A stretch of DNA of 42,345 nucleotides from a virus. The DNA lies in the IMG/VR virus record IMGVR_UViG_3300032820_002177, positions 1 through 42,345 of that record; one strand, given 5' to 3'. The notes under the pieces are model-generated. The model was not told the DNA's origin and searched no databases. It saw nothing but the letters and a program-made list of their open reading frames with translations. Below are positions 11,602-41,654 of this stretch, piece by piece (positions within the stretch are counted from its first letter, which is position 1; each line of letters opens with the position of its first letter). Made by a program: the position numbers and the translations under genes.

Positions 11602-11603
11602 AT

Positions 11604-22059: not shown

Positions 22060-22062
22060 TTC

Positions 22063-22091
22063 TTGACTTTTTATTTCGCCCATAGTATAAT
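22063..22091 (+). promoter_or_regulatory. Host sigma-70-type promoter for the radical SAM/oxygenase operon
   Basis: TTGACT at 22063-22068 and TATAAT at 22086-22091, 17-bp spacer, starting three bases after the fibre gene stop. GGGAGAA serves as RBS for the ATG at 22111. Confidence 0.88.
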
Positions 22092-22110
22092 ATAACTGTG
22101 GGAGAATTGT

Positions 22111-25767: not shown

Positions 25768-27268
25768 TTCCATCGCATACTTTTTCTAATAATTTAGAAA
25801 AAGCAACAATATCTCCATCTTGAAAAACTTTAGTATAAAATTCTTTTGAGGACATTATAATATTAAGTTCGTTTGCTGTACCATTAGGAAATAATGCATT
25901 ATCAAAAGTTTTTATAATTAAATCTGTACGTAATCCATTATTATTTTTCATGTCATCAAATACTGCACTTAATACAAATTTTAAATCTCTATTACATTTT
26001 TGACTATGACCTACTGATTCAATTTCGTTACTATTTTTTTCTAATACTAGGTTTACTAATTCTTCTCCCAATGCATCTAAAACAGGAGGTGAACTTTTTA
26101 ATTGACTAATTTTTTTATTAATACTAGTAATTCCATCCCAATATCTAGTTGCTACTGCAATAGTTTCAAAATTACCACCATTTTGTAAATCAGTTACAAT
26201 TGCATCAATATTATAACCTGTGTCTCGACTACATTTCTGAAATTGAATTTCATCATGAACACTAGGATAAGTTGTCTTAAACCAAGTCATTGCTTCTTCT
26301 ACAATAGATTTTTTATGTGTTAAAATTAAATTACTAGCATTTGAATATTTAGAATCTTGCGATAGAAAAGTAGGAACAGCACTAAGACCTTTTACAGTAA
26401 TATTATTAACAGTATTTTTTAACTCAGTTACTCTTTCTGCTGAATCAACTTCACCATTAGTAATTAATAATTTATTAATTATTTCTTCTACTTTATTATT
26501 AACAGCAACAGCATAAGTTTCTTCTTTAGGCCCTAATTGCGAAGTTAACTCTGGCCATTCAACAACTCTTTCTACACTAGGTTTAGGTATTCTGAAAGCC
26601 GGACGGTCGTACGTTCCTATTCCTAACATAAATCCTGTATGTCTTGAATCTCCTAATAACGGTATAGAAACCCTATCTTGTACGTAACCAAAACATTGAC
26701 AAAATGCTGCATCTAATTCGTAACTATTTGCAAGCACTGATATTACATAAGCATACATAGCAGACGCTGCTAAATAATTCATTTGATAACCTGCACTTCG
26801 TTCTAGCCAAATATCGTCAGTTGACAGGGTATTATTTTTAATTCTTTCGCCATTAGATTTAGACTGAAACTCTGAATATTTAAATACTAAAAGATAAGGT
26901 GCTAAAACTTGAGGATTAAAACTAAAATACTTGTTATTTCCTTCTGTATGAAATGGTAAATCAGATGTTAATAACCCCCTAGTAATTTCATCTGCTTCTG
27001 CATATTTTATTTTATTTAACTGAAAACTAGTATCTATTAAATGATGAAGTGTGTGGGGAAGAAGGTCTCTCTTTTTTGCATGAAATTCTGGACCATATAC
27101 TTCTACTTTAAAATCATAATTAGAATTTTTTACTGGTGTTAAATCTATTGCTTTCTTTAAAATAGCTTCAATATCTTCTTTTTTAGGGGCACTATCTTTA
27201 AAAAATTTATGATTTTCGCGACGTTCCATTGCTTGGAACATATCAATTTTAGGGGCAAATTTTAGCAT
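25739..27268 (-). CDS. Nitroreductase-like domain fused to T4-cyanophage-type structural repeats
   Basis: A 509-residue protein. Residues about 10-60 (FQAMERRENHKFFKDSAPKK, then a PVKNSNYDFKV segment) and about 158-225 (GYQMNYLAASAMYAYVISVL; HTGFMLGIGTYDR) match the FMN nitroreductase fold. From about 250 on it is helical, with two copies of a KC.RD motif: QKCSRDTGYNIDAIVTDL (344-361, then GGN and RYWDG) and QKCNRDLKFVLSAVFDDM (423-440). This recalls the KCRRDxGYIVDAxxxDL...GGN repeats of T4-like cyanophage structural proteins. A TATAAATA late promoter and strong RBS precede it, so a virion-associated flavoprotein is possible. Confidence 0.7.
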   Translation of the reverse strand: MLKFAPKIDMFQAMERRENHKFFKDSAPKKEDIEAILKKAIDLTPVKNSNYDFKVEVYGPEFHAKKRDLLPHTLHHLIDTSFQLNKIKYAEADEITRGLLTSDLPFHTEGNNKYFSFNPQVLAPYLLVFKYSEFQSKSNGERIKNNTLSTDDIWLERSAGYQMNYLAASAMYAYVISVLANSYELDAAFCQCFGYVQDRVSIPLLGDSRHTGFMLGIGTYDRPAFRIPKPSVERVVEWPELTSQLGPKEETYAVAVNNKVEEIINKLLITNGEVDSAERVTELKNTVNNITVKGLSAVPTFLSQDSKYSNASNLILTHKKSIVEEAMTWFKTTYPSVHDEIQFQKCSRDTGYNIDAIVTDLQNGGNFETIAVATRYWDGITSINKKISQLKSSPPVLDALGEELVNLVLEKNSNEIESVGHSQKCNRDLKFVLSAVFDDMKNNNGLRTDLIIKTFDNALFPNGTANELNIIMSSKEFYTKVFQDGDIVAFSKLLEKVCDGIRSNHLLLK

Positions 27269-27289: not shown

Positions 27290-27297
27290 TATTTATA
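27290..27297 (-). promoter_or_regulatory. T4-type late promoter (minus strand)
   Basis: TATAAATA read on the minus strand, about 22 bp before the ATG at 27268, with AGGAGAT as RBS. Perfect match to the T4 late consensus. Confidence 0.8.
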
Positions 27298-27997
27298 TAA
27301 TACCTATTAACATAAAACGGTTATAGGCTTTTAATTCAAAAACGCCACTATATAATATTGTGTTCATAGGACATTGTTCTTTAAATTCTTCTAAATCTTT
27401 AACACAATTATTATGTTCCGGTAAACCAAAATAATTATTACTTTGTAATATAACTAATTTATCTTTTGGTAATTTACGATACCATCTCTCAAATTCTTTA
27501 ATATGTTCACAGCTAGTATTGATAATAGTATCAGGTGCATCTATAAGCTCAACTTCTGATCCATCAGAACGTTTAGTATGATATAAAGCTTCATAATAAT
27601 TAAGTTTTAAAATATCTTTTGTTATTGCTTTAAACTTCCATCCATCGATAACCTTTGACTTATTAAGACTATCTGCAATAGGTGCACAGTTCTCATCTAT
27701 ATCAAAACTTCTTATTATATTAATATTAAATTTACCTTCAAATAACATATTTGCCAATAGTCCATACCAGCCTGCACAAATAAAAACTTTACCTAAAGTA
27801 GGACTTATTTTTGATTCACATACTTTTTCTAATTCTTCAACTAACCATTTTTTACTTTTAAGTTGTCCCCAGCTTAATACATCAGATAAGTCTGCGTCGA
27901 AGTGATCAACAGCATTCCTTAAATTTTTAAATATAGGATCACCGGTCAATGCAAACATTCGTCCAAAAACATCTTTGTCATCTTGCCATTCAATCAT
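27293..27997 (-). CDS. SAM-dependent methyltransferase-like protein
   Basis: 234 residues from ATG 27997, supported by AGGAG 7 nt upstream; it overlaps the preceding gene's stop by 8 bp. The centre reads as a Rossmann methyltransferase: KVFICAGWYGLLANMLF (motif I-like but without the Gly-x-Gly), IRSFDIDENCAPIAD (motif II acidic end), DTIINTSCEHIKEFERWYRK (motif IV-like) and LVILQSNNYFG. Methyl acceptor unknown. Last gene of the long minus-strand run. Confidence 0.6.
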   Translation of the reverse strand: MIEWQDDKDVFGRMFALTGDPIFKNLRNAVDHFDADLSDVLSWGQLKSKKWLVEELEKVCESKISPTLGKVFICAGWYGLLANMLFEGKFNINIIRSFDIDENCAPIADSLNKSKVIDGWKFKAITKDILKLNYYEALYHTKRSDGSEVELIDAPDTIINTSCEHIKEFERWYRKLPKDKLVILQSNNYFGLPEHNNCVKDLEEFKEQCPMNTILYSGVFELKAYNRFMLIGII

Positions 27998-29069
27998 TAA
28001 ACTGCTCCTGTAACCAATCAAAGTCATTAATTTTTTTAAGCAATTCTATATTATCAGCATTTTCTAATCCATACTTTCTTCCAGCTATTGCACCCTTAAT
28101 TGCCCATTCTCCATATTTTTCTTGTTGATTAAACTCAGTACACCATATTTCTAAACGTTTATTAGTTTCGTCATTTTTTTGACCCGGAATAATTTTACTT
28201 GCTAATTTTACACATTCTCTAAATGCACTTTTCCAAGTATTAAAAGGATCAGTATTAAATGCTGTTATATTAGATATTTCTTGTATAGGCTTAAATTTTT
28301 TACTAATAGTAGTTGTCATGTCGGTAGTTGTTACATCCATATCTAATGTTAATTTACGAGGAAGAAGTTTAACTCCTCCATGACCATACACTAAACTATT
28401 AATAGGATTTTGACTACGCCAAACATGTACTATATCTACCTCATGCCTACTTAACTGATGGTTAAATTCAAATTCGTCCATTATTAAAGCATCAGCATCG
28501 ACTACATAAAACATTTCTGTACTAACTATCTTTGCTGCTTCTATATGTGCTTGGTGAATTCCTTTAACTCCGTTTATTCTTTGTGCATATGGAACTTTTT
28601 CTAATAATTTAAAATAATTTTCATCAGCATTTAATTCATTATAACTAATGAATACAACATCATACTGCTTATCTTGACTTGCAATAATTTCAATTTCTTT
28701 TTTATTTACAAAAAACTTATATTCAATTTCTCTATCGCTTACTTCTAAATTTTTTGGAATTAACGAAACTCCACTTACATACGAAGTTGTTGGAGCTTGA
28801 AAAGTGCCTTCTGAAGTACGTTCTACTTCAGAAACTATTTTTAAATTTTTAAAAACATGTATTAAATTTTGATCCCATTCTTCTGGCACAAATGAAAAAT
28901 CAAAACTATCTTTTACTTGAACTATATCTCCCCATATAGTCCAAAACATATTAGTGAATATTTTATTTTGTGCCTCTCTAAAGGTCATAGCATGCTTTAA
29001 TGTAACAAATTTTTTCTTTAAAACTTGCCATTGAAGGTCTTTTTTCCCTATATAAACTATATCATACAT
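27990..29069 (-). CDS. Glycosyltransferase-like protein (GT-A, DAD motif)
   Basis: A 359-residue protein. After an N-terminal region of unknown fold, residues about 135-200 read YDVVFISYNELNADENY (136-152), VPYAQRINGVKG (159-170) and FYVVDADALIMDEFEF (DAD at 191-193), a nucleotide-sugar/metal motif. The same module occurs in the gene at 36022-36963, so the two are paralogues. It likely transfers a sugar, but donor and acceptor are unknown. It starts immediately at the preceding gene's stop. Confidence 0.65.
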   Translation of the reverse strand: MYDIVYIGKKDLQWQVLKKKFVTLKHAMTFREAQNKIFTNMFWTIWGDIVQVKDSFDFSFVPEEWDQNLIHVFKNLKIVSEVERTSEGTFQAPTTSYVSGVSLIPKNLEVSDREIEYKFFVNKKEIEIIASQDKQYDVVFISYNELNADENYFKLLEKVPYAQRINGVKGIHQAHIEAAKIVSTEMFYVVDADALIMDEFEFNHQLSRHEVDIVHVWRSQNPINSLVYGHGGVKLLPRKLTLDMDVTTTDMTTTISKKFKPIQEISNITAFNTDPFNTWKSAFRECVKLASKIIPGQKNDETNKRLEIWCTEFNQQEKYGEWAIKGAIAGRKYGLENADNIELLKKINDFDWLQEQFND

Positions 29070-30365
29070 TTAATATTTTCTACCATATCTCATTTCATCA
29101 AATAATTTTAAAAATTTTACTTGATGAGTTATTCCTAAATATTTTTCTCTATTAACTTTAGTAAATTCTTTTACTTGCTCTAATTTTTTTTCAGTATCAC
29201 AACTATTTCGTATGCGAATAAGCTCATCACAAATTAATTTTGCTCTTTTAGGAAAATCTAAAAATGTATCATATTCTTCATTGATAATATCATAAAACGT
29301 AAAATAGCCTTCTCTATTTAAATATTTAATAAGTTGACAACTTCCAAGAATAATAAAAGGTTTACCCATAGCAATTAATTGCCATATTTCAAAATTTGTA
29401 AATAAAGAATTTATTTCATCCATATATTGATCATTTTTATGGGCTGCAAAACGAGGCGTTACTATAGTAAATAAACTATCTTTATGATATGATATATCGT
29501 CTTTTAAATTAAAATTTATTCCTTCTTCTTGTAATATAGAAATTATTTTTTTCTTCTTTTCTACATATTCATCATCTCTATAAAGATCTAACAAATTAGG
29601 ATCTTTATAATTTATTTCAAAATCTACAGGATGATAATTAATAATTCCTTCATTATCTAAATTATTTGCTATTAATTCACTGATGAGACTTAACCTATGT
29701 ATAGAAGTATTTTTAGTTACAGAATAAAATAATTTTTTAGGCTTAAACTTGTCTATATCAAACTGCTTTATAGGTAAAATTGGTGCTCCTAAAAAATGAT
29801 TATAACCAAAATTTGTGTATTTTCTTTTACAAATTTTATCACAAATAATTAATCTACTTTCAATTTGCCACCAATCTAAAGAATAAGTCTTATAAGGTTG
29901 GAGTAATTTTTTATAAGAATTATTTAAATCACTTGTTACAATAAAAATATTATTATAAGAAATTCCTATAGATAAAAACTTATCTGCTAAATCTTTAACA
30001 TATAATAATTCTTGCCTACCTTGAAACTCCAATCCTAAAAGTAAAAGTTTTAATTCACCTCTTTGTAAATATTCTAATGTTTCCCCAGGTATATTTAAAT
30101 TAATACCTCCTACATCTACTTCTAAAGGATAAAATAAATTTAAACAAATATTTCCATCTGTAAATAATTCTATATTACAATCATTTTGCAACATTGTATA
30201 ATAGAAACTAGATATTATTTTTACAATAGGTTGCTCAGAACCTGGCTCAAATCTAGGCTTTCCTAAAGGGAAAGGCCACTTCCTTTTATCAATAAAATAT
30301 TCACCAATACCATTTGGTACTGGCCCTTCTTTTGTAATTCGATCATAATAAAAATTAATCGGCAT
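29070..30365 (-). CDS. Glycosyltransferase-like protein (uncertain)
   Basis: A 431-residue protein. Its C-terminal part SLFTNFEIWQLIAMGKPFIILG and LIKYLNREGYFTFYDIINEEYD resembles the donor-side of phage and viral glycosyltransferase-like proteins, where a 'gKPFI..G...l..L...GF.tF' pattern recurs. The central stretch KPKKLFYSVTKNTSIHRLSLISEL is also GT-B-like. No strict catalytic motif is visible. It abuts its neighbours within one base on both sides in the long operon, which supports a shared carbohydrate role. Confidence 0.5.
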   Translation of the reverse strand: MPINFYYDRITKEGPVPNGIGEYFIDKRKWPFPLGKPRFEPGSEQPIVKIISSFYYTMLQNDCNIELFTDGNICLNLFYPLEVDVGGINLNIPGETLEYLQRGELKLLLLGLEFQGRQELLYVKDLADKFLSIGISYNNIFIVTSDLNNSYKKLLQPYKTYSLDWWQIESRLIICDKICKRKYTNFGYNHFLGAPILPIKQFDIDKFKPKKLFYSVTKNTSIHRLSLISELIANNLDNEGIINYHPVDFEINYKDPNLLDLYRDDEYVEKKKKIISILQEEGINFNLKDDISYHKDSLFTIVTPRFAAHKNDQYMDEINSLFTNFEIWQLIAMGKPFIILGSCQLIKYLNREGYFTFYDIINEEYDTFLDFPKRAKLICDELIRIRNSCDTEKKLEQVKEFTKVNREKYLGITHQVKFLKLFDEMRYGRKY

Positions 30366-31318
30366 TAGTGCTTACGATAAGGTTGTCGCCAATCACGAGG
30401 ATCATTTGGATCATAGTAGTTTGCAATATAATCGGCATCATCTTTACTAGGCAAAATAAGTTCTTCTGGAACTGAATAAACTTTTGTTTTAGGTAATAAA
30501 TCTAATTCAGTCATTTCTTTATCAAGAACTTCTGACCAAGCAATATGACCACATTCCTGAAAATGGTGCCATCGCCCATCTTTTTTAGGATTGTGTCCTT
30601 TATTAATTAAATGCGCATAATAAATTTCTTCAGGATCAAAAGGATGCCGATAATAAATATCTTTTGCTAAAATTTTACACCCTTCTAAATCAAAAGATTT
30701 ATCTTCTTGATTAAACTCATCAGGGAAAGGATGCTTAAGAACACCTTTTATTTTATGAAATGGTTTAACACATTCTACTGCATTAAACATATAATATGAT
30801 ATATTTTTATCTCGCAAAAAAGAACGTAAAAGTTGATATTGAAAAAGATGATTATACACTTGAACATCATAAGGTTGAAGAGCTATTAAATCTCTCCATA
30901 ATTTCCAAAATTTTACAATTTTTTTATCTTGAAGTTTTGTCCAGTTTGGCATTAAATCAATATGCGCCGAAAGCAATTTTAAATTACCTTCATAAGGAAG
31001 TGCTAATCGGGGATAACCTGACCAGCCAATTAATGAAATTATCTCAGAAGGATCATATTGTGTTAATAATTGATTTACTTTCCTTACTGTATTTCTCATT
31101 ATTGTTATATTATCTAATCCTGCATGACATACATTAACGTGACGTAAATTATTTTTTCTAGAAAGGTGTCCTGCAAACGAACGATATTGTTCTTCTCTAC
31201 GTATTTCTTTACGAAAACGATGACTTTTTGGATAACCTTGTTCTCCTAAAATTTCAAATCCTGCAGAATGACTACAACCTGTTACTAATAATACTTTAAG
31301 TTTAGATGTATCTAACAT
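30365..31318 (-). CDS. SGNH-hydrolase-like protein
   Basis: 317 residues from ATG 31318 (RBS GGAGG; stop of the upstream gene overlaps by one base). LLVTGCSHSAGFE near the N-terminus matches the GDSxS-type block I of SGNH esterases, NVCHAGLDNITIMRNT matches block II/III, and HHFQECGHIAWSEVL near 255-270 matches the C-terminal block with the catalytic His. This family of phage proteins may be a sugar O-acetyl esterase or transferase. The Cys in place of the block I Asp is unusual. Confidence 0.62.
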   Translation of the reverse strand: MLDTSKLKVLLVTGCSHSAGFEILGEQGYPKSHRFRKEIRREEQYRSFAGHLSRKNNLRHVNVCHAGLDNITIMRNTVRKVNQLLTQYDPSEIISLIGWSGYPRLALPYEGNLKLLSAHIDLMPNWTKLQDKKIVKFWKLWRDLIALQPYDVQVYNHLFQYQLLRSFLRDKNISYYMFNAVECVKPFHKIKGVLKHPFPDEFNQEDKSFDLEGCKILAKDIYYRHPFDPEEIYYAHLINKGHNPKKDGRWHHFQECGHIAWSEVLDKEMTELDLLPKTKVYSVPEELILPSKDDADYIANYYDPNDPRDWRQPYRKH

Positions 31319-33402
31319 CAAAATTCCTCCTTGCTTACCATTAAATCACCTCCACACAAACAATTTAAAGAAGAACACATTATTGGTCTGCGTAAAGAAT
31401 TCCAATCAATTCTTTGCCAATGATCTAATGTACCTATAAACCCTCCTTCATGACAATTACCTCTTTTAATGCTTCCATCACGATCTATAAATAACGATTC
31501 TTTACCAATATGACAATTATAATTAAAAAAGTTTGTTTCTCCATTTCTAATAGGATCTTCTGATAATTCAAATACTTTTTGATCTTCATTCTTATATTTA
31601 ATAAAAATATCCTTAGCAGGGTGTTTTTCTCCACTATGGGTACCTCTGTGACGTCTTATATGTTTAAAATTATTAATAAATTCTAATTGATCATCTGTAT
31701 ACTTTATATCACAAAGTTTAAAACCTATATTACCATACTGTTCATCAATAATAACTGCATCGATATTAGCTTTTGTTTCTTCTTTAATACGTTCTAAAAA
31801 ATCCATTGTTTGATCCCAGTATAACGGGTCTAACATTATTCTAGCTGTTGTGGGTGCTAAACCAAAAGATATATTTAACTTTCTAATATATTCATCTTCA
31901 GTCTTATTCGGAAACACCATTGCTGGATGAAAACTAGCACATACTTGTGTAACATATTTAAAAGTTCTTTCTATAAATTGCTCTGACCTTGTAAGATTCG
32001 TTGATAAATTTATATGATGAGAGTTGTTATGTACTTCTTTAACTAGTTGAGAGAAAAAAGGACTTAATGTTGGTTCTCCTCCACTTAATGAAAAAATTAT
32101 TTTACGGTTGTCATTTTCTATAGAATAAAAATTAAATAAATGTTTTAAAAATGGTAAAATATGATGCCAGTTATATTTGTGATTTTTTCCATTTTGAAGA
32201 ATAGGTGGACAATAACGACAACTATATGTACATACATCATTTATTATCCAAGTAATTATACTAGTTTTAGGATTAAAAATTTTTTCTATCTTTTTACCTA
32301 CTACTGGTTTTGGTTTTTTCCAAACAGGTTTACGATGTATCGGCGTAGAAAATGGTGGTCTTTTATGGTGAGCGTCTCTTGGAACTACTGCCATTGAATA
32401 AATGGTATTAAATTGTTTAAAATTATCATTTATAATACCTATACTTGGCAAATAAAACTCTTCACATTGTTCCCAAATCAGTTCCCCAATCTTAATATAC
32501 CCTTCTCGATTTTCAATAAAATTACCAAATTTAAATCCTAATTTTTCATTAACTTGTAAATCATGCCATTTAGTAGAATACCAATATATATCCTTAGGAG
32601 TGTCATTATTAGGAGATAATCTAACATGCACTTCATTAGACCAAGTTGTTTGTGGAGCAATTGCATTTCGATCTATTGCATCTTGATCACCATCTATAAC
32701 AATATGATGTAAATTTTTTCCTAAGGTGTTATAACCCAAACAAAAATCTCCAAATTTTAAAAATGGACTCATACTATAAAAATCTTCCGATTCTAAAATA
32801 AAATCTGTTCTTGGATTAAAACTAATAGTCATATTACCACGAGTATTATATCCTTCTTCTACCGGGGTTACTTCATGTGTATGTATTAATGAATTTAAAG
32901 TTTGAAAAGCACTATTAAGTTCTTCATTAAAAGTTCTTCCTGGCCATATATTTGCAAGGGGAGAATTTTCAGGTATTCTTAAATACGCATCTCCCCACCA
33001 GTCTTCTTCTAATTTTTCTTCTAAACGTTCTCCATACCTCTCATAACATTCATGAAGCACATTGAGGAAATTATTATCTAACCGTGTATTACCTCTTGAA
33101 TCAATAAAAGTTTTAATTTTAGGAATTTGTTCGTCATAATATTCGTTTATTTTTTTAATAATAGTTTCTAATTTTTTTAAATTTTTATTCCTGTCGGGAG
33201 AAGATGTTTTAAATGCCCGATCTTTATAATCATGAGCACCGCTAGTTAATTCTATAAAATGCTCTAACCATTTATGTGCTATAGGAATATCATATAATTG
33301 AAAGAACAAATCTAAGTAATCCCAAGTAGCAGGATCCGTTAATGTAATTCTTATTACAGGATCTACTACTACATCATTAAGTTTATCGTATTCAATTTGC
33401 AT
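31318..33402 (-). CDS. Two-part radical SAM protein with C-terminal Cys cluster
   Basis: A 694-residue protein. Residues 1-380 are a domain I do not recognise (Trp/Asp-rich, ESEDFYSMSPFLKFGDFCLG at about 204-223). Residues from about 380 form a radical SAM core: CTYSCRYC (C391, C395, C398) and LSGGEPT (439-445). The C-terminus has several Cys (YNCHIGKE, RGNCHEGG, IMCSSLNCLCGGD), consistent with a SPASM-type auxiliary iron-sulfur site. SPASM enzymes often modify peptides. The N-terminal domain may bind the protein substrate. Overlaps both neighbours. Confidence 0.83.
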   Translation of the reverse strand: MQIEYDKLNDVVVDPVIRITLTDPATWDYLDLFFQLYDIPIAHKWLEHFIELTSGAHDYKDRAFKTSSPDRNKNLKKLETIIKKINEYYDEQIPKIKTFIDSRGNTRLDNNFLNVLHECYERYGERLEEKLEEDWWGDAYLRIPENSPLANIWPGRTFNEELNSAFQTLNSLIHTHEVTPVEEGYNTRGNMTISFNPRTDFILESEDFYSMSPFLKFGDFCLGYNTLGKNLHHIVIDGDQDAIDRNAIAPQTTWSNEVHVRLSPNNDTPKDIYWYSTKWHDLQVNEKLGFKFGNFIENREGYIKIGELIWEQCEEFYLPSIGIINDNFKQFNTIYSMAVVPRDAHHKRPPFSTPIHRKPVWKKPKPVVGKKIEKIFNPKTSIITWIINDVCTYSCRYCPPILQNGKNHKYNWHHILPFLKHLFNFYSIENDNRKIIFSLSGGEPTLSPFFSQLVKEVHNNSHHINLSTNLTRSEQFIERTFKYVTQVCASFHPAMVFPNKTEDEYIRKLNISFGLAPTTARIMLDPLYWDQTMDFLERIKEETKANIDAVIIDEQYGNIGFKLCDIKYTDDQLEFINNFKHIRRHRGTHSGEKHPAKDIFIKYKNEDQKVFELSEDPIRNGETNFFNYNCHIGKESLFIDRDGSIKRGNCHEGGFIGTLDHWQRIDWNSLRRPIMCSSLNCLCGGDLMVSKEEF

Positions 33403-34648
33403 TTTCTAAAACCTTATAAAATTCCGGAAATGTTTTTTTAAAACTTGTATTCCGTATTTTGTCTAATTTATCTCGATAATCAATAAATTGAGGATATAAA
33501 TCTGATAAATCTTCACTATCCATAAAATCTAATTGCGGAAGTATTTTTTCTCGCCACTGTTTATTATATTTTAACTCTTCAAAACTTTCCCATTTTTTCC
33601 TTATTTCAGATTTAATTGATTTAGGAAAAACTTTAATAGATAGGTATCTCGGCCAATGTACTGTTCCGGCATGAAATACTCCACTATGATGTAAATGGCC
33701 TACTCTTTTAAATTTACTCTTAAGCATGTTTTCTGCAAACTCAGGTATATAATACACGTTCATTGCATGAATTGTTGCTAAAACTTTCACATCAATATTG
33801 TCAGGTGTTTTATCTAACTTTTTAAGATTTCCAGAAATTAATTCCCAATTAGCCGGGTATCGTACATATTCTAAATGTTCTCCCCAAGCGTCTATACTAG
33901 CCATTACTTCTACAAACTTAAATTCCTTCCATAAATTTACTATTTCCTCAGAAATAATAGTTCCATTAGTATGATAACGCAATTCTATATTTTTACTATA
34001 ACCAAACTTTACTAAATTCTTTATTAACTGTAAATGTTCTTTTATAAGCAGAGGTTCGCCGCCAGCAAAAATAAGATGCCTTATAGTAGAAAACATTGGT
34101 TCAAAATCTTTCCAAAGTTTTTCTTTTTTATACCATTCAAATTGATCGGTATCTATATTTGATTTATGCTCCCAGTCCCATTTAGCATCTGTCTCTAAAA
34201 TATCTTTAAGTTTTTTAGCATTACTTAACCACATACTACTATCTTGAGGACGACACATAACACATTGTAAGTTACAAGTATTACCTAATCTTAAATCTAG
34301 AGTTATAAAATTTTCAGTTAGTGTTCCATCTTTCTTTGTAGATGAAATTAATTCTGCAATTCTATCCTCTCCTAATTTATTCTCCCAAAGAACATTTTCA
34401 TTTATTCTATGACTGCGGATACCTGCCGCTTCTTCTTTATAGCAATGGTCACATGCTGATACCTTTTCACCTTTTAACATTTTTACACGAGCATCTTTAA
34501 AATGCTCACTATTCCATATAGTATCAACACTATCCTTATTAAAATTTAACTTATGAGAATTCTGTGCTACACAACAAAGTAAAGCACTTCCGTCGGTCCA
34601 AGTCGCAATATGGGTCCAAGGTAAGATACAAAATGTTTCTGATTTATT
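33392..34648 (-). CDS. Radical SAM protein with N-terminal Cys region (twitch-type), paralogue 1
   Basis: 418 residues from ATG 34648, which overlaps the upstream stop by 5 bp; no strong RBS, so translation is probably coupled. Cysteines C8, C26-C27, C67 and C70 (FCILPW, LLCCVAQ, CDHCYKEE) precede the radical SAM core CNLQCVMC (C126, C130, C133) and FAGGEPLL (196-203). The N-terminal set resembles a SPASM/twitch auxiliary cluster placed before the core. It is clearly paralogous to the next gene upstream. Substrate unknown. Confidence 0.83.
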   Translation of the reverse strand, partial: NKSETFCILPWTHIATWTDGSALLCCVAQNSHKLNFNKDSVDTIWNSEHFKDARVKMLKGEKVSACDHCYKEEAAGIRSHRINENVLWENKLGEDRIAELISSTKKDGTLTENFITLDLRLGNTCNLQCVMCRPQDSSMWLSNAKKLKDILETDAKWDWEHKSNIDTDQFEWYKKEKLWKDFEPMFSTIRHLIFAGGEPLLIKEHLQLIKNLVKFGYSKNIELRYHTNGTIISEEIVNLWKEFKFVEVMASIDAWGEHLEYVRYPANWELISGNLKKLDKTPDNIDVKVLATIHAMNVYYIPEFAENMLKSKFKRVGHLHHSGVFHAGTVHWPRYLSIKVFPKSIKSEIRKKWESFEELKYNKQWREKILPQLDFMDSEDLSDLYPQFIDYRDKLDKIRNTSFKKTFPEFYKVLENAN

Positions 34649-36032
34649 CATTTTTAAAATCATCCCAAACACTTGGATCCACTTGTAGTTTTTCATAATA
34701 AAGATCTAACTCCGATGCTAAATCGGGTATCAAGTCTTTAAAACTTTGTGAACGCTTTTTATCTAAAATGTCTGTCATTGTTAAAAATTGTTTATATAAC
34801 TCGTCATGCTTTACATGTAACTCTTTTCTAAATAAAGAAATTATTCCATCAACACTTTCTTTTACTAAGTTATTACTAGAATAACGATCACTACTATCTC
34901 TATATACTTCTAAATTTTTTGCGCCTATTTCTCGAATACTCTGAGGAATTATAGTTACATCTAAAAATGTTGGATGATTATTAATTAAAAAATTTACATT
35001 AATATTCTTTTTATAATCCTTGGATATACGATCGGCATAATACAAAAGATTATGACAATCTAAAATGTTATAAACTTGTACAACAGGTGTTATTCCTAAA
35101 TCTACATTAGATAATTCTGCTAACTTTCTAAAATTCTTTTCAACATGGGTCCATTTAGCAGGATATCTAATATAATCATTAACTTTTTCATATCCATCTA
35201 AACTACAATTAATTTTAAGGCTCTTAAATTGGCTAACTAATTTTAAAAATTTATCAGTAACATTAGTACAATTAATATTAAAAAATAATTCTATATCTTG
35301 ATTATATCCTGCAGAAATACATTCTTCCATAAATCTATAATTATTTTCTATTAATGTCGGCTCTCCTCCTGTCATATAAACTTTCTTAAGATTAGGAATC
35401 ATAGATATAATTTCATTCCATAAAAAATTTCGATCAAATACAGTTTGAGCCTCTTTTAAATGAAGAGGATTTGCCCCAAACTGGTCTCTCCATACCTTAG
35501 AATATTCATTATATACAGGACTATCAGCTTCTACACCCCCTTCAAAAAGTTGGAAATGCTCTTTTGCTAACTGACTACTATTCCAAGGATTACACATACG
35601 ACATTTTAAATTACATAAATTTCCTAATCTTAAATCTAAATAAACAGGCGGCAATGAGATTTTATAATTATTATCTATAGCTTCTTGAATATAATCATTA
35701 AATACTTCTCCTAATCTATGCTCCCATTCTGCTGTCATCATTGAACGAAAACTTATTGCACCCATTTCTTCTTGCTTATAACAATTAGCACATGCTTCTA
35801 ATTTTGTACCATTAAGCATTGCTTTTCGAGTTTCAATCATTGTATAACTATTCCAAGACTCTAAAAGACTTGTATCTTCAATACTTAATTTTTCTCCAAG
35901 CGTTCCGTCAATTGTAGGTTCTTCTCTTAAAATTGCTTTAGGACCAAATGCTATACAACAGTATCTTGTAAAAGTATCTGTATTAAGCATAAGACCGATA
36001 AAGGGCATTGCACAAAACGATTTATTTTTCAT
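34644..36032 (-). CDS. Radical SAM protein with N-terminal Cys region (twitch-type), paralogue 2
   Basis: 462 residues. Same layout as its neighbour: C7, C25-C26, C81 and C84 (SFCAMPF, RYCCIAF, CANCYKQEE), then the core CNLKCRMC (C140, C144, C147) and YMTGGEPTL. Shared phrases include LDLRLGN.CNL.C and IRYPA.W. The tandem pair probably arose by duplication and may act in sequence or as a heterodimer. Overlaps the preceding gene by 11 bp. Confidence 0.83.
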   Translation of the reverse strand: MKNKSFCAMPFIGLMLNTDTFTRYCCIAFGPKAILREEPTIDGTLGEKLSIEDTSLLESWNSYTMIETRKAMLNGTKLEACANCYKQEEMGAISFRSMMTAEWEHRLGEVFNDYIQEAIDNNYKISLPPVYLDLRLGNLCNLKCRMCNPWNSSQLAKEHFQLFEGGVEADSPVYNEYSKVWRDQFGANPLHLKEAQTVFDRNFLWNEIISMIPNLKKVYMTGGEPTLIENNYRFMEECISAGYNQDIELFFNINCTNVTDKFLKLVSQFKSLKINCSLDGYEKVNDYIRYPAKWTHVEKNFRKLAELSNVDLGITPVVQVYNILDCHNLLYYADRISKDYKKNINVNFLINNHPTFLDVTIIPQSIREIGAKNLEVYRDSSDRYSSNNLVKESVDGIISLFRKELHVKHDELYKQFLTMTDILDKKRSQSFKDLIPDLASELDLYYEKLQVDPSVWDDFKNE

Positions 36033-36963
36033 TATCTTTTATCTCATTATCTATGATATTAACTGTGGGTACTCTATCAGGATTACGAAAAACTTTTTTA
36101 AAAAATTTACTTTGACCTGCATTAAATGGGAGGGGATCAATAGGTATATTAGTTTTACGAACTAGCATTTCTCCTAGCTCAATTATCTTATCTAATAAAT
36201 TTTCTTCTTTAACTTTATTATTTTCCCACATCTCATTTAAATATTTAAAATTACGAACATTTATATAATCCCAATCCGTACACATAGTTTTATATAAACC
36301 ATGTCTAGCACCATACACTGCCCACAATCCATTGTCTACATCTGCTCCTACCATTTGCCAAACCCATAAACGATGTAAATTTTTCCAATGCCCTTTTAAC
36401 AAATACGAACTATCTTTAGGTCTTACTCCTCTGTCAAGAGCCATTTTAACACCTTCTCGAAATCCGGCTCGCCAGGCTTGGTGAGGATTTTCATTATTAT
36501 AAACATCTGAAAAACATGCATTTTGTTGAATATATTCTAAGTCCCAACAAAAATCTACTTGTGCATGAGGATTATCTGATGCTGCATTCTCATGAGTACG
36601 CATATTTAAAACATGTTTTTTTGGCCAACATTTTAATCCTCCATTGCCATACATTAGCCCATTAATAATATTATAACCACACCAACTTATAACTGCATTC
36701 TCTAAATTAATATGTTCATCAAAATTAATTGACTGACGTAAAAATTCTTCTTTAATAATATTATCTCCATCAACAGTAATAAATCGATCTGTTTCTGAAA
36801 GATTGGCGCAGGCTTTGTGTGCTGAATCTGATCCTTCTACTCCATGAACTCGTTTTGCCCAAGGAACTTTAGAACATAAATCAGCATAATTCTTTTCTGC
36901 ATTTGGCTCATCATAACTCAAATAAATGATATCATAATCTAAAACTTTAAAAATTTTGCTCAT
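36022..36963 (-). CDS. Glycosyltransferase-like protein (GT-A, DGD motif), paralogue
   Basis: 313 residues. LDYDIIYLSYDEPNAEKNY (8-26), VPWAKRVHGVEGSDSAH (33-49) and RFITVDGDNII (60-70; DGD at 65-67) repeat the module in the gene at 27990-29069, here at the N-terminus. The downstream part has GLMYGNGGLKCWPKKHVLNM, matching VYGHGGVKLLPRKLTLDM in the paralogue. A nucleotide-sugar transferase function is likely; acceptor unknown. 4-bp overlap with the upstream gene. Confidence 0.68.
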   Translation of the reverse strand: MSKIFKVLDYDIIYLSYDEPNAEKNYADLCSKVPWAKRVHGVEGSDSAHKACANLSETDRFITVDGDNIIKEEFLRQSINFDEHINLENAVISWCGYNIINGLMYGNGGLKCWPKKHVLNMRTHENAASDNPHAQVDFCWDLEYIQQNACFSDVYNNENPHQAWRAGFREGVKMALDRGVRPKDSSYLLKGHWKNLHRLWVWQMVGADVDNGLWAVYGARHGLYKTMCTDWDYINVRNFKYLNEMWENNKVKEENLLDKIIELGEMLVRKTNIPIDPLPFNAGQSKFFKKVFRNPDRVPTVNIIDNEIKDNEK

Positions 36964-37529
36964 TCTATTGTCCTATGATAATATTCTTCATGTTTTACAT
37001 AAGAATATAAACTAATATCTTTTCTGCTAATAGTTTTGTTATTAGATTTTTTAATTGTAAAAATTTTATTATTAAAAAATCGTTCCATAGGTACTTCTAA
37101 TACATCTAATAAAACATTTGGATTATTTTCTTCAGTTACATATATCTTTTTTATTTTATTCAGTTGCATAACATGAGTTAAAAATTTAGTATAAACACCA
37201 GTTAATTTTGCTCGTGCTTGCCATTCTTTCTTTTTTTGATTTTGAATAATATAAAATATATTATCTTTCATTGATTTAGTTTTAGTTTTAGGGAATTCAT
37301 GAATACTTCTTGCTATATCAACTTCTAGTTCTTCTGACCTTATTAAATTAAATTCTCCATTAACTTTATCTAATAATATACGATGATCTGAAATACTAAA
37401 CTCTCCAGAAACAAATTTTACATAAGTTTCTTGATCAACTTCTATATAACTATTAGTATTTTCTGGGGATAATTCATTTGTACATTGAAGAATAGTTCCG
37501 TATTCTAAATCATAATAAATATAAAACAT
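36960..37529 (-). CDS. Unrecognised operon protein
   Basis: A 189-residue protein with a strand-rich N-terminal half starting MFYIYYDLEYGTILQCTNEL, and a Lys-rich C-terminal half (QNQKKKEWQARAKLTGVYTK, LEVPMERFFNN). No enzyme motif, membrane segment or signal peptide. It sits between two glycosyltransferase-like genes with 1-4 bp overlaps. A structural or substrate-binding role in this pathway is possible, but I cannot say more. Confidence 0.5.
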   Translation of the reverse strand: MFYIYYDLEYGTILQCTNELSPENTNSYIEVDQETYVKFVSGEFSISDHRILLDKVNGEFNLIRSEELEVDIARSIHEFPKTKTKSMKDNIFYIIQNQKKKEWQARAKLTGVYTKFLTHVMQLNKIKKIYVTEENNPNVLLDVLEVPMERFFNNKIFTIKKSNNKTISRKDISLYSYVKHEEYYHRTIE

Positions 37530-38356
37530 TATAAAGACTCCAATCTTTTAAGAAATTTATCAGTTAAAAATTCTTGGTCAACATAATGAAGAACATTATT
37601 TTGTATATAATTCCCTAGAAGTAAAGTTTTATCATTTCTTAAATAACTCCCTATACTTTTTGTCCATTTCTCAGGAACATCATGCCATCCCTGTAGATGA
37701 GGTTTCATGTGAGTAAACGTAATAGTTGAATCTGATTGTGTTATTTCTTTTTCATTATTTAAAATTTTACTAGCTATACTGCAACATAAATCTATACTGC
37801 ATCCTTGCTGGAAAAGATCAGGAGCACATTTATCATAAAACAGTTCCCAATTTACAACTATTAATTCTAATAAAGTAAAAAATGAATGGGAATAATCACA
37901 TTTTTTAAAATAATGAATTGCACTATAAAGATCTGGAAGATTGTTTGCATCAAATGTTTTTCTATAATGTCTACTAGTAACTATTTCATTTCGAAAATTC
38001 CTAACATTACTAACAAAAAACAAATCTCTTTCTGAAAGAAAATTCCACCATTGTGAAATCTTATGTAATACTAACATATCAGCATCCATAACAATAGTAT
38101 ATTCATATGGAGTTACATGATATACTTTCCATCTATTCTCTATTTTCCAATGACTCAATTCTGCTTGATCATTCCAGGGAATCTTAATTATTTTATCAAA
38201 AACCTTTTGATATTTTTTTGGAACTTTATCATTAGTAATTAATGAAACTTTTTGATCTTTATTAAATTTATGAATACTTAACGCAAGAGCATACGCTTGC
38301 CGTACATAATCCGTATCAGGATTATTCTGTGCTAATATACAAAATCCTTTACTCAT
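37529..38356 (-). CDS. Glycosyltransferase-like protein (GT-A/GT8-like, DAD motif)
   Basis: 275 residues from ATG 38356 (overlaps the upstream stop; an in-frame start at 38368 is possible). The N-terminus KGFCILAQNNPDTDYVRQAY, then ALALSIHKFN, and later YEYTIVMDADMLVLHKI (DAD at 91-93) are the usual nucleotide-sugar binding strand and metal motif of GT8-like enzymes. THMKPHLQGWHD near 220 could hold the second metal His. Paralogous to the next gene upstream. Confidence 0.7.
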   Translation of the reverse strand: MSKGFCILAQNNPDTDYVRQAYALALSIHKFNKDQKVSLITNDKVPKKYQKVFDKIIKIPWNDQAELSHWKIENRWKVYHVTPYEYTIVMDADMLVLHKISQWWNFLSERDLFFVSNVRNFRNEIVTSRHYRKTFDANNLPDLYSAIHYFKKCDYSHSFFTLLELIVVNWELFYDKCAPDLFQQGCSIDLCCSIASKILNNEKEITQSDSTITFTHMKPHLQGWHDVPEKWTKSIGSYLRNDKTLLLGNYIQNNVLHYVDQEFLTDKFLKRLESL

Positions 38357-39206
38357 TTTTAAACTCAATATCTATCATTCTATTCAAACTAAATTTATTC
38401 ATTACATGAACATTTGAATTAGACATAGTTACTCCGAGAAAATTTCCTGGAGGTGATGCTTCTATTACAAAAAATAATTTATTATCTTTTATTTCATATA
38501 AAATATCCTTGTCTGTTGATACATACATATTACCTGGAAGAACTTTTGGCCAATCATTTGACTGAAACCCATTTAAAATATGAATTGCAATACTAAATGC
38601 AAAATCATTTCTATATAAACTTCCTGGAATTTGATATATTAATTTATAAAAACTCCAATTTTCTTTAATATGTTTAATTAAATTAAAATAAGCTTCTGTC
38701 ATTTTACTTTTTTTAAAATAAAAAGCAGTTGCCCATCTTAAATTTATAGATTTATCACTTACTCTATTAAAAGGTTGGAATTCTCGTTCTTTAAATATAT
38801 CTATAGGATCTTTATAAATTAAAAAATCTTCATTTAACTCAAAACAATTTAATAAATCATTATTGCAAACAATAAAATCTACATCAATAACTAATGTTTC
38901 GTCAAAAGGTGAAATATCATAACAATCTGGGCGAGTATGATTTTTCCACAACAATATTTTTTCTGTGTATGCTCCATCAAAAAATTTTCTTGTTTGATAA
39001 GTAGACAAATTCTTCTTTAACTCAATTATTGAATCAATATATTTTTTGTAAAAGGGAAACGAATCTTTTACATAAGAAGAAGACTCTGTAGCTAACGCTA
39101 CAGGTAAATTTAAATGTTCTTTTATTTTTTTAGCACAATAAATTGCCTGTTTTACATAGTCAATTTGTGAATTATTTACTGCAAATAATAAAACTCCAGA
39201 TTTCAT
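38349..39206 (-). CDS. Glycosyltransferase-like protein (GT-A/GT8-like, DVD motif)
   Basis: 285 residues. SGVLLFAVNNSQIDYVKQAI (3-22) and FDETLVIDVDFIV (101-113; DVD at 108-110) match the same blocks in the gene at 37529-38356, so this is a tandem paralogue. It likely uses a nucleotide sugar. The start overlaps the preceding stop (ATGA). Acceptor unknown; the neighbouring fibre genes make protein glycosylation one candidate. Confidence 0.68.
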   Translation of the reverse strand: MKSGVLLFAVNNSQIDYVKQAIYCAKKIKEHLNLPVALATESSSYVKDSFPFYKKYIDSIIELKKNLSTYQTRKFFDGAYTEKILLWKNHTRPDCYDISPFDETLVIDVDFIVCNNDLLNCFELNEDFLIYKDPIDIFKEREFQPFNRVSDKSINLRWATAFYFKKSKMTEAYFNLIKHIKENWSFYKLIYQIPGSLYRNDFAFSIAIHILNGFQSNDWPKVLPGNMYVSTDKDILYEIKDNKLFFVIEASPPGNFLGVTMSNSNVHVMNKFSLNRMIDIEFKNE

Positions 39207-39550
39207 ATGTTTAATAAACCTTCAGATGTCCTTTTTTCTTTTAATTCATTAAACTTAATTAAGTATTCATTTACATTTGTAAAATAAACATTTAAAATTT
39301 TATCCAAAAATTCTTCTAAATCGTCTATTTCTATTGGAGTATTATTATCATCTACGAAAATAGCCGAAGTTTGATTTTTTTGTAATAAAGTATTACAAAA
39401 ATTAATTAATTCTTTATTAACTACAAATTTACCGCCTCTTTCATAATATACAGAATTTTCTAAAAACTTTTCATATATTAACTTACGTTGATTATTCAAC
39501 GTAACCATAAAATTAGAAAAATCTAGAGCTTTTTCAAGTCTTTCGTCCAT
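39203..39550 (-). CDS. First gene of the minus-strand operon, unrecognised
   Basis: A 115-residue, mostly helical, acidic protein beginning MDERLEKALDFSNFMVTLNN. It resembles small conserved proteins next to fibre genes in marine T4-like phages. A strong RBS (AGGAGG) and a host-type promoter precede it, so it is the most highly translated member of the run. Its role is unknown; regulator and chaperone are both possible. Confidence 0.55.
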   Translation of the reverse strand: MDERLEKALDFSNFMVTLNNQRKLIYEKFLENSVYYERGGKFVVNKELINFCNTLLQKNQTSAIFVDDNNTPIEIDDLEEFLDKILNVYFTNVNEYLIKFNELKEKRTSEGLLNI

Positions 39551-39569
39551 ATAAGCCTCCTATCTAAAG

Positions 39570-39584
39570 CTATACATTGTATAG
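39570..39584 (-). repeat. Palindrome at the operon promoter
   Basis: CTATAC (39570-39575) and GTATAG (39579-39584) around ATT. It overlaps the -10 region and start point of the promoter. It could be an operator or an mRNA 5' hairpin; AT-rich, so chance is possible. Confidence 0.4.
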
Positions 39585-39611
39585 TATATACTTAAGACAG
39601 AGAAATGTCAA
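39583..39611 (-). promoter_or_regulatory. Host sigma-70-type promoter of the minus-strand operon
   Basis: On the minus strand TTGACA (39611-39606) and TATACT (39588-39583) with a 17-bp spacer. It starts at the 3' end of the fibre gene and points to the 115-residue gene. No other promoter is seen until 27290. Confidence 0.82.
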
Positions 39612-40651
39612 CCTATATTTTGAAGATTTACATATGTAGGCGTAGCAACTGTAACTCCATCTACTACTGATGCTCGTACTTGAGTCATTGTAAGACCCAA
39701 ATCTCCTGTAACTCTGTCATCTACATTACTACCGTCTGTATCAGCATCATTCCATTCAAATCTAAAAACAACAGAATTAGTTGAGAGTAATTTAGCTTTT
39801 ATTGTAAAATTATTTTCTGCGTAATTTGGAGCTGATCCTGATTTTGAAAAAATGTCTTGATAAGATGTAGTTAACTCATGAAACCCTATAGCTGATGCAA
39901 CTGTATGCGGCCCTGTAGCAGTAGTAGTTGTACTATGCACTTTAAAAGAAATAATTCCAGAATTTGTTATAATTGCATCCCAATCTACATCTTTTTGATT
40001 GGTGGATTCATTTGTTAATGCAGAAGACATATTTATAACACCTCCTGTATTAAAAAAGTGACGTCGATGATCTTGGGTAGTTGCTGCAATATCGATTCCA
40101 TCGTCAGTTTTACATATATATCCGCCGGCAAAAACTAATTGAAATTCTGCACTTAATCCTGCAGCAGGCCAATCAGAAGTATATGACGCACCTGTATCAG
40201 CCGATTGTACTTTTGTTTCTAGAACTGTTTGTGTAGCATGTACTGTTAAATGATCTACTTCAATTGCAGGAATAAGCGGTGGAATATCATTTACACCTTT
40301 TGTAGCATCTGGATTAACAACTGTAAATGTATCTGGTGTTCCTGGTGTACGCTGAACAGTGTCTCCTGATCCTGTATTTGACTCATCTGCTCCTATAATA
40401 TTTCCGGATACTATCTGATTAATTCCAATGGATGTATTAAATTGATGCCCATATACCATATTAAGATCTGTAAATAATCCACCCCATTGACCTGCGGTTA
40501 TATCATCTACGCCGGCCGGTGCTACCATTCCAGTATTAGCCATAGCTTGACCATAACCTTTATCACCTGATCCTATGCCTAGAATAAGATTTATACGAGT
40601 AACAGCGTCATTATGTTCAGTAATTTCAACATTATCACCTGGTGAAACCAT
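39608..40651 (-). CDS. Fibre/structural protein, paralogue A
   Basis: 347 residues. The N-terminus has INLILGIGSGDKGYGQAMAN, and the C-terminal domain contains HRRHFFNTGGVINMS, a motif seen in T4-like marine phage fibre-type proteins, followed by FHELTTSYQDIFSKSGSAPN. The middle insert is Thr/Pro/Asp-rich and absent from paralogue B. A late promoter (AATAAATA) and RBS AAGGAGA precede it. Probably a virion tail or fibre protein. Confidence 0.75.
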   Translation of the reverse strand: MVSPGDNVEITEHNDAVTRINLILGIGSGDKGYGQAMANTGMVAPAGVDDITAGQWGGLFTDLNMVYGHQFNTSIGINQIVSGNIIGADESNTGSGDTVQRTPGTPDTFTVVNPDATKGVNDIPPLIPAIEVDHLTVHATQTVLETKVQSADTGASYTSDWPAAGLSAEFQLVFAGGYICKTDDGIDIAATTQDHRRHFFNTGGVINMSSALTNESTNQKDVDWDAIITNSGIISFKVHSTTTTATGPHTVASAIGFHELTTSYQDIFSKSGSAPNYAENNFTIKAKLLSTNSVVFRFEWNDADTDGSNVDDRVTGDLGLTMTQVRASVVDGVTVATPTYVNLQNIG

Positions 40652-40718: not shown

Positions 40719-41621
40719 TTATAATTCTACTGTATTAGAATATGTTGGACTAGGAACTGAAACATAAATTCCGGACGCACGGCGTTGGGTAATAGTACTA
40801 GTAAGAGTTCCTGTAACATTTTCGTCAGGAGTACCACCTGAATCATCTTGGAATCTTATATCAAATTCTATAATTCTACTATCAACTTCTTTTGCTGTAA
40901 TTCGAAACAAATTTTCATCATAATTATAAGCAGATCCTGATTTTTGAAATACTGTTTGGTGTGTACTTGTTAATTCAAAATTTCCTATAGCACTAGGTGT
41001 TCCATTACCAGAACTTGTAGTTGCATGTATTGCAAAAGATACTATCCCTATACCTGACAATAATCCTGCCCAATCTGCATCTTTAGACCCTGCACCATTA
41101 GATAATTGTCCTTGAAATCTAACCTCTCCACCTGTATTAAAAAAATGTCTACGAGCATTATCAGTAAAAAATGTTACTTGAAAAGTATGTATAACAGTAC
41201 CATTCCAGTCTTGTGTTCTAGTACTAGAAGTTGCTGCTTCAACAGATGCTTGAGTATCATCGCATAAAAGTTTATCAGATTCTACAGAATCTACTATACT
41301 AATAAAATCATTATAGCCTTTTAAACTATTTGTTCCACCGCCAGATAATACCACATCATCTGCACCAATTCTATCTGTAATTTCAACAGTTGCTATATTA
41401 GTTAAACTACCTGATTGATGTGCTCTACATTTATCTATATCAGTTTTAAGATTTACCATTTTTTCAGCAGTTATTACTGAATTAGCTGAAACAACATTAC
41501 TTGATAAAACTTGACCATACCCTGTATCTGTAGATCCTACTCCTAAAACAGTTTCAACACGGCTTTGTAATCCATTATATGTTGCAGCCGTGATAACATC
41601 TTGAACACTTACAGTAGGCAT
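40719..41621 (-). CDS. Fibre/structural protein, paralogue B
   Basis: 300 residues. VETVLGVGSTDTGYGQVLSS at the N-terminus and RRHFFNTGGEVRFQGQLSN with NFELTSTHQTVFQKSGSAYN in the C-terminal half align with paralogue A throughout, apart from a shorter centre. Tandem duplication is clear. A late promoter overlaps the upstream gene's stop. Virion structural function inferred. Confidence 0.75.
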   Translation of the reverse strand: MPTVSVQDVITAATYNGLQSRVETVLGVGSTDTGYGQVLSSNVVSANSVITAEKMVNLKTDIDKCRAHQSGSLTNIATVEITDRIGADDVVLSGGGTNSLKGYNDFISIVDSVESDKLLCDDTQASVEAATSSTRTQDWNGTVIHTFQVTFFTDNARRHFFNTGGEVRFQGQLSNGAGSKDADWAGLLSGIGIVSFAIHATTSSGNGTPSAIGNFELTSTHQTVFQKSGSAYNYDENLFRITAKEVDSRIIEFDIRFQDDSGGTPDENVTGTLTSTITQRRASGIYVSVPSPTYSNTVEL

Positions 41622-41646: not shown

Positions 41647-41654
41647 TATTTATA
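41647..41654 (-). promoter_or_regulatory. T4-type late promoter overlapping a stop codon (minus strand)
   Basis: TATAAATA on the minus strand. The TAA within it (41652-41650) is also the stop codon of the gene upstream. It lies 26 bp before the ATG at 41621. Confidence 0.72.

Follow-up and report, generated by a model that had tools for sequence, protein, structure and literature searches.

What is an operon of glycosyltransferase-like and radical S-adenosylmethionine (SAM) genes doing beside the fibre genes of a phage, and on which acceptor do its enzymes act? We examined this question in one IMG/VR virus record (IMGVR_UViG_3300032820_002177), whose 42,345 bases are called the window below. 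On the minus strand of the window, twelve genes run from 39,611 to 27,293, directly downstream of a pair of paralogous fibre genes. We found that this operon joins a constant core, tied to the fibre genes, to a tailoring cassette that varies between loci, and that its enzymes and the fibres carry promoters of different classes. With about even confidence, we read the operon as a soluble pathway of glycan assembly and tailoring that most likely acts on the fibre proteins of the phage itself (fib2, fib1, fib3).

All eleven junctions of the operon overlap or abut, with zero positive gaps, which agrees with the contiguous overlapping run from a single promoter that the first-pass annotation of this DNA had described. 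That annotation had counted eleven genes; its own list sums to twelve. The fibre genes and the operon are listed from upstream to downstream.

41650..42345 (runs off the window), minus strand: fib3, tail-fibre type; phrog_22593, phrog_19602.
40719..41621, minus strand: fib2, virion fibre protein, paralogue of fib1.
39608..40651, minus strand: fib1, virion fibre protein, paralogue of fib2, directly upstream of the operon.
39203..39550, minus strand: g0, first operon gene, 115 residues, no assigned function; conserved family A9.
38349..39206, minus strand: g1, GT8/glycogenin-like glycosyltransferase; DxD motif VIDVD; profile A5 match over the N-terminal 110 residues.
37529..38368, minus strand: g2, second GT8/glycogenin-like glycosyltransferase; DxD motif VMDAD; TTG start.
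36960..37529, minus strand: g3, 189 residues, beta-rich, no assigned function; constant place between g2 and g4.
36022..36963, minus strand: g4, GT-A-fold glycosyltransferase-like protein of the GTl family (A4); DxD motif TVDGD.
34644..36032, minus strand: g5, radical SAM protein with N-terminal twitch domain; CNLKCRMC; NF033640 E 5.6e-102.
33392..34696, minus strand: g6, radical SAM protein with N-terminal twitch domain; CNLQCVMC; NF033640 E 1.1e-117.
31318..33402, minus strand: g7, N-terminal accessory domain, radical SAM domain (CTYSCRYC at residue 391) and SPASM-like Cys C-terminus.
30365..31321, minus strand: g8, SGNH-like/DUF6071; TTG start; PF19547 E 1.7e-7, above cut-off.
29070..30365, minus strand: g9, 431 residues, glycosyltransferase-like by motif only.
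27990..29069, minus strand: g10, second GT-A-fold glycosyltransferase-like protein of the GTl family; DxD motif VVDAD.
27293..28027, minus strand: g11, methyltransferase-like, family A6; putative activity suggested by motifs.

Viral contigs were scanned from three starts, GTl (the g4/g10 family), fib2 and g0, and the best 80 of more than 500 matches were analysed for each (at least 588 viral matches for GTl). The fib2 and g0 scans were added as a reciprocal test, since the first scan had begun from g4. All 60 GTl-anchored loci whose sequence reached 6 kb or more beyond g4 on the upstream side were ordered fibre, (g0), g1, g2, g4, with g0 unrecognised in one. Starting from fib2, each of the 64 loci with enough downstream sequence ran fib2, g0, GT8, GT8, g3, GTl; starting from g0, 74 of 74 loci with enough upstream sequence were preceded by fib2. 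The fib2- and g0-anchored sets included near-duplicate contigs of one population and overlapped in part, and therefore do not represent 138 independent events. Beyond g4 the cargo was variable, and comprised twitch radical SAM proteins, a second radical SAM family of about 355 residues (67 genes), UDP-glucose dehydrogenase, a NodU-type carbamoyltransferase, an adenylate-forming enzyme and SGNH-like proteins, with g10 and g11 frequent at the far end of the loci. About a dozen loci (L060, L062, L065, L071-L073, L078-L080, L085-L087) carried the bare core without radical SAM genes. Since the order was fixed up to g4 and the content differed behind it, the operon consists of two modules. The earlier claim of glycan-tailoring enzymes linked to fibre genes was strongly supported across the relatives. 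A conserved linkage of a radical SAM trio with the fibres, which had been put forward as a check, was rejected: what stayed constant was instead g0, the GT8 pair, g3 and the GT-A protein, and the radical SAM set varied or was missing altogether. In three loci (L055:9983-13315, L064:9998-13174, L088:9983-12655), g4, g10, a repeat region and g11 were fused into proteins of 890-1110 residues, which suggests joint action. The tandem repeats of these fusions, about 24 residues long with a consensus like LRKAVTEKNVHSLFRLLGDEHED, recur elsewhere as the N-terminus of g11 where it is a separate protein.

The promoter elements around the operon, and the gene at its downstream border, are as follows.

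39583..39611, minus strand: host-type (sigma-70-like) promoter TTGACA-17-TATACT, the best sigma-70-type match in 24-42 kb.
41647..41654, minus strand: late motif TATAAATA before fib2, about 20-26 nucleotides from the start.
27290..27297, minus strand: late motif TATAAATA before the gene 25739-27268, at the downstream operon border, about 20-26 nucleotides from the start.
25739..27268, minus strand: downstream gene, matching a short-tail-fibre segment in PHROGs at residues 287-380.

The operon promoter overlaps the end of fib1 and ends 32 nucleotides before the ATG of g0. In the window, the strict TTGACA-17-TATACT-type pattern occurred 4 times versus 0.27 expected, and the T4-type late motif TATAAATA 4 times versus 13.7 expected, rarer than chance. 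Promoters in the relatives were counted in unique 100-base upstream stretches and compared with shuffled copies, with at least 10 of 12 matches required for the sigma-70 type. Such a promoter preceded g0 in 72 of 92 unique upstreams (4 of 92 shuffled), always with a spacer of 17. At 11 of 12 matches or better the count was 66 of 92 versus none in shuffled copies, which ruled out a promoter arising by chance. A second sigma-70-type promoter was found before a GTl gene in 26 of 102 cases. The late motif, counted as NATAAATA within 60 bases before the gene in the related upstreams, preceded fib3 in 87 of 91 (1 shuffled) and fib2 in 68 of 144 (5 shuffled). It was found before g0 in 1 of 92 and never before the GT8, g3, GTl or twitch genes, giving 1 of about 600 unique upstreams for the core enzyme genes (g0, GT8, g3, GTl and twitch radical SAM). 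From the counts at g0 and at fib3 and fib2, a host-type promoter on the enzymes versus a late-type promoter on the fibres is a conserved property of the lineage. By analogy with T4 biology, the host-type promoter would mean early transcription by the host RNA polymerase, and the differing classes probably entail differing timing of enzymes and fibres. Both the host-type promoter at the head of the operon and a separate timing of enzymes and fibres had been proposed in the first-pass annotation; the promoter is the top match in its region and is conserved before g0 across the lineage, and the distinct promoter classes are strongly supported, so that the proposed timing is probable. Of the late promoters predicted for the flanking genes, those of fib2 and of the downstream gene were found, whereas fib1, the fibre gene nearest the operon, had no late motif of its own. 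The downstream gene, formerly described as a nitroreductase fusion, gave no Pfam match, and PHROGs pointed to the tail-fibre segment. Converging on the downstream end of the operon is a second fibre-adjacent tailoring set (window 20812-25173, plus strand), which opens with another fibre-type gene and goes on with a radical SAM gene (22111-23052), an unassigned gene and two TauD-family oxygenase genes.

The proteins of the operon were compared with family and structure databases. The profile of g1 and g2 (A5) had glycogenins as its sole PDB matches, at E about 1e-5 and confined to the N-terminal 110 residues, and none of 31 members of the family matched the Pfam GT8 domain; the two are therefore termed GT8-like only. 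The AlphaFold2 model of g4 (pLDDT 88) had a GT-A fold. Its top Foldseek matches were the SunS/ThuS peptide glycosyltransferases and a PBCV-1 capsid glycosyltransferase (E 5e-4 to 1e-3, TM about 0.25-0.35), and VIA-align gave a Z of 9.9 to B4GALNT1, with a root-mean-square deviation of 3.0 over 140 residues, where nucleotidyltransferases of similar topology also reach Z 8-9. Alignment with g4 placed g10 in the same group. Judged by the model of g4 and this alignment, both are GT-A-fold proteins with a DxD motif, a statement on fold and not on function. Their family had no Pfam, PHROG or NCBIfam assignment, and GTl is a new GT-A family with hundreds of members. The model of g3 (pLDDT 88) had no PDB match by Foldseek. 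Against NF033640 (twitch domain-containing radical SAM proteins, curated cut-off 170), g5 and g6 scored 341.8 and 393.6 bits over the full profile, with the motif CxxxCxxC intact, and by their sequence they are unambiguous members. We found no member of NF033640 with a known reaction and, in the literature, nothing on twitch radical SAM proteins in phages; g6 had distant tblastn matches in KVP40-like vibriophages. The N-terminal half of g7, a domain without database match, is fused to a radical SAM domain ending in a SPASM-like cysteine pattern, and the two halves occur as separate genes in one relative (L006). g8 belongs to DUF6071 and carries a GCSHS motif. A tblastn search of 50,697 phage records gave no match for g0, g2, g4, g7, g8 or g10. 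No precursor of a ribosomally synthesised and post-translationally modified peptide (RiPP) was recognised near the radical SAM genes, very short open reading frames being left out, and the Cys-rich C-termini were mostly part of the enzymes themselves. These assignments upheld what had been read from the sequence beforehand for the glycosyltransferase-like pair, the further glycosyltransferase-like genes g4 and g10, the two tandem radical SAM proteins, the two-part radical SAM/SPASM-like protein (one protein with an unrelated N-terminal half) and the SGNH-like hydrolase. For the glycosyltransferase-like g9 and the methyltransferase-like g11 the motifs were present, but neither matched a database family.

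The N-domain of g7 belongs to an unnamed family whose members also neighbour radical SAM genes in L006 and in L122, a Bdellovibrionaceae genome. A free-standing homologue (24% identity by BLAST) lies at 5401-6279 on the plus strand of the window and adjoins a transglycosylase-like gene. These kinships rest on direct BLAST and hhalign; an iterated profile drifted into twitch proteins and was discarded.

A near-identical contig (L005/G002; operon proteins mostly 97-100% identical) extends the window. Its extension held genes which, read by eye from position and sequence, resemble those of T4-type major capsid, prohead, baseplate and gp46/gp47-like proteins. The major capsid protein shared 72% identity with its counterpart in Vibrio phage 2.275.O (349 kb) and 68-70% with those of Phosso, XaC1, GAP32, CBB and BF. 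Nine long records bear the operon: eight viral contigs of 165-268 kb, and one genome bin that is filed under Neomarinimicrobiota and includes a 335-kb contig. Each of the nine encoded the same capsid protein at 83-91% identity. The operon carriers therefore form, by sequence, one coherent lineage of T4-superfamily giant phages, known here from environmental DNA alone; it is aquatic (ocean and lake), uncultured and widespread. Identity with the moraphages was judged unlikely, since these group with gut and mouth phages whereas the capsid protein here is 72% identical to that of Vibrio phage 2.275.O. The 335-kb contig (PBPT01000016.1; L106/L130) carries the phage operon, the capsid gene lies in the same Candidatus Neomarinimicrobiota genome, and that genome is probably a misbinned giant-phage genome. 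Elsewhere in the window (3857-5401 and 10924-12476, plus strand) are a DSGGFQ-motif protein like tRNA-guanine transglycosylases/DpdA (TTG start), a GTP cyclohydrolase and a QueE-like protein, a set which suggests 7-deazaguanine modification of the phage DNA.

We also found the tailoring module in cells. Among 84,980 genomes scanned, Bdellovibrionota chromosomes (L114, L117, L119-L122, L124, L128) carried clusters of GTl, methyltransferase-like, twitch and further radical SAM genes. Their neighbours were genes for succinyl-CoA ligase, NDK and UvrA, and fibres, g0 and the GT8 pair were missing. A lone GTl gene was found near glycosyltransferase-like genes in three Photorhabdus genomes. Since the Bdellovibrionota clusters lack fibres, g0 and the GT8 pair, the module, judged by its gene content, serves cells for a purpose of their own, and only g0, g1, g2 and g3 are tied to the phage fibre. 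No literature on the Bdellovibrio counterpart was found.

On which acceptor, then, would these enzymes act? A simple count by hydropathy gave no membrane segment for 753 of the 765 operon-strand proteins that have 120 residues or more, and two or more segments for none. As there is no multi-pass protein among the 765, there is no flippase, polymerase, ligase or GtrA/GtrC-type protein, which argues against a self-sufficient O-antigen pathway and against serotype conversion of the Gtr type. We favoured the fibre as acceptor because membrane proteins are absent and the fibre linkage was found in 64 of 64 loci. UDP-glucose dehydrogenase and the NodU-type carbamoyltransferase of the cargo were counted in favour of glycan tailoring, and glycogenins prime a glycan on a protein. 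This reading is also favoured by the opposite promoter classes of enzymes and fibres, by the persistence of the core where the radical SAM cassette is missing, by the fused g4-g10-g11 proteins, by the top, though weak, fold matches of g4 to peptide and capsid glycosyltransferases, and by the detection of the PA5oct fibre homologues by mass spectrometry. In the mechanism we propose, the host RNA polymerase would transcribe the operon early, so that the enzymes would be ready when the fibre proteins appear. The glycogenin-like pair g1/g2 would start and prime a sugar chain, which g4 and g10 would lengthen. The radical SAM proteins g5-g7, g9, the SGNH-like g8 and the methyltransferase-like g11 could then vary the sugars through epimerisation, dehydrogenation, deacylation or methylation. 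The host-range locus would travel together with its sugar decoration as a single cassette, and as the cargo between g4 and g11 varies, each phage would be decorated differently. Tentatively, we propose that the fibres may be glycoproteins: GT8-like enzymes of the phage would prime the chain, its radical SAM enzymes would rewrite it, and an exchangeable cassette would make the glycan phage-specific.

Several observations weigh against the fibre as acceptor. Peripheral glycosyltransferases that act on lipid-linked glycans are likewise without membrane segments. g4 resembles its structural matches only weakly (TM 0.25-0.35; Z at most 9.9), and the chromosomal clusters of GTl, methyltransferase-like and radical SAM genes need no fibre. 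In Pseudomonas phage PA5oct, homologues of fib2 and fib3 are proteins detected by mass spectrometry (the latter annotated as a virion structural protein), yet they end their gene block and none of these enzymes was recognised there. The fibre loci of marine T4-like phages are general hotspots of glycosyltransferase and radical SAM genes that have been read as serving O-chain modification (PMC7029224). In a possible, though somewhat unlikely, explanation, early enzymes alter the O-chain or another surface glycan of the host and thereby block competing phages or the phage's own progeny; the position at the fibre locus would follow from co-evolution of receptor binding and receptor masking. The early-type promoter, the UDP-glucose dehydrogenase and carbamoyltransferase cargo, the Bdellovibrionota homologues without fibres and the GTl genes near glycosyltransferases in Photorhabdus all fit such a role, and the same interpretation has been published for pelagimyophages (PMC7029224) and for cyanophages (PMC7824862). 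However, no multi-pass protein was found among the operon-strand proteins, and the linkage to one fibre pair in every locus is stiffer than a host-directed function requires.

In our view it is quite improbable that the product is a small molecule, diffusible or linked to a nucleotide (for instance a modified sugar or an antibiotic-like metabolite), which would aid the infected cell or the phage, the fibre linkage being positional only. Adenylate-forming, amidotransferase-like and ATP-pyrophosphatase-like cargo and several radical SAM enzymes, in the island or its chromosomal counterparts, would suit it, as would the secondary-metabolite cluster proposed in jumbo cyanophages (PMC7824862). However, the invariant core consists of three glycosyltransferase-fold proteins (a fourth, g10, in most loci) with no synthetase or exporter, and the fibre linkage was without exception in the 64 loci. 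Glycosylation of the phage DNA, as by the T4 glucosyltransferases, is very remote. DNA is the classical target of phage glycosyltransferases, and this phage probably modifies its DNA through the 7-deazaguanine pathway; but the operon has no pyrimidine-hydroxylating gene, it sits with the fibres while the DNA-modification genes lie at 3.9-12.5 kb, and bacterial chromosomes carry clusters of its homologues.

A locus of this kind is already known from other phages. In pelagimyophages, the host recognition cluster is hypervariable and includes GT8 genes and radical SAM cassettes (PMC7029224); these phages share with the one described here the T4-superfamily marine background and a glycosyltransferase and radical SAM island at the tail-fibre genes. 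Their cluster, compared by description only, shows little synteny and mixed content (PMC7029224), whereas the lineage here is a different one of giant phages with a fixed core of fib2-g0-GT8-GT8-g3-GTl and a promoter switch; by tblastn, the phage collection, which was not checked for HTVC008M, gave no homologue of g0, g2, g4, g7, g8 or g10. The glycosyltransferase clusters of jumbo cyanophages are read as capsular polysaccharide systems (PMC7824862). They likewise combine several paralogous glycosyltransferases with sugar-modifying enzymes, but the passages on these clusters stress genes for nucleoside diphosphate-sugar synthesis, halogenases and 2-oxoglutarate oxygenases and do not mention radical SAM enzymes. 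Moraphages have four core glycosyltransferase families (PMC12619734). Glycans occur on virion proteins of mycobacteriophages (Freeman 2023, as cited in PMC12619734), where the targets are the capsid and tail tube; the operon here differs in its fibre linkage, its several glycosyltransferase-fold genes and its radical SAM genes. What is new is the rigid core, the promoter switch, the reciprocal fibre linkage and the cellular counterpart of the cassette.

Two cultured phages carry a related arrangement. In Sinorhizobium phage Phosso (L135:10999-19148) and Agrobacterium phage Atu_ph07 (L136:11811-19460), a fib3 homologue is followed by a cupin and three to four radical SAM/SPASM proteins. As in the operon here, a fib3 homologue precedes several radical SAM genes; in contrast, no glycosyltransferase was recognised, and the cupin and a CHxS-repeat protein stand there instead. 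The latter, of about 300 residues, ends in YCHTSCHASCHSSRSRR or FCHSSCHASCHNSRSRR, with the C-terminus CH[TS]SCHASCH[SN]SRSRR, and is a candidate substrate of these radical SAM enzymes; the Phosso protein had no relative in the viral contigs, nor in phage records other than Atu_ph07. Two of the radical SAM proteins resemble RiPP maturases such as PapB, DynA and DarE, far below the curated cut-offs, and one accessory protein resembles the g7 N-domain (hhalign probability 87%, E 4e-6) in thin alignments. A fibre gene with a radical SAM set thus recurs with different companions, and Phosso and Atu_ph07, being cultured, offer a bench system.

Glycosyltransferases and radical SAM enzymes are common in marine phage genomes, where they are usually filed as auxiliary metabolic genes. 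Here the rigid gene order, the conserved promoter switch and the absence of membrane proteins make the neighbouring fibre a candidate target that can be tested directly. If it is the target, the fibre sequence by itself would not suffice to predict host range in a widespread aquatic lineage, and radical SAM enzymes of unassigned reaction would gain a substrate class. On the more tentative reading of a fibre glycan that differs from phage to phage, these phages would carry a fibre-bound, phage-encoded glycan code that serves host recognition or hiding from anti-phage surfaces.

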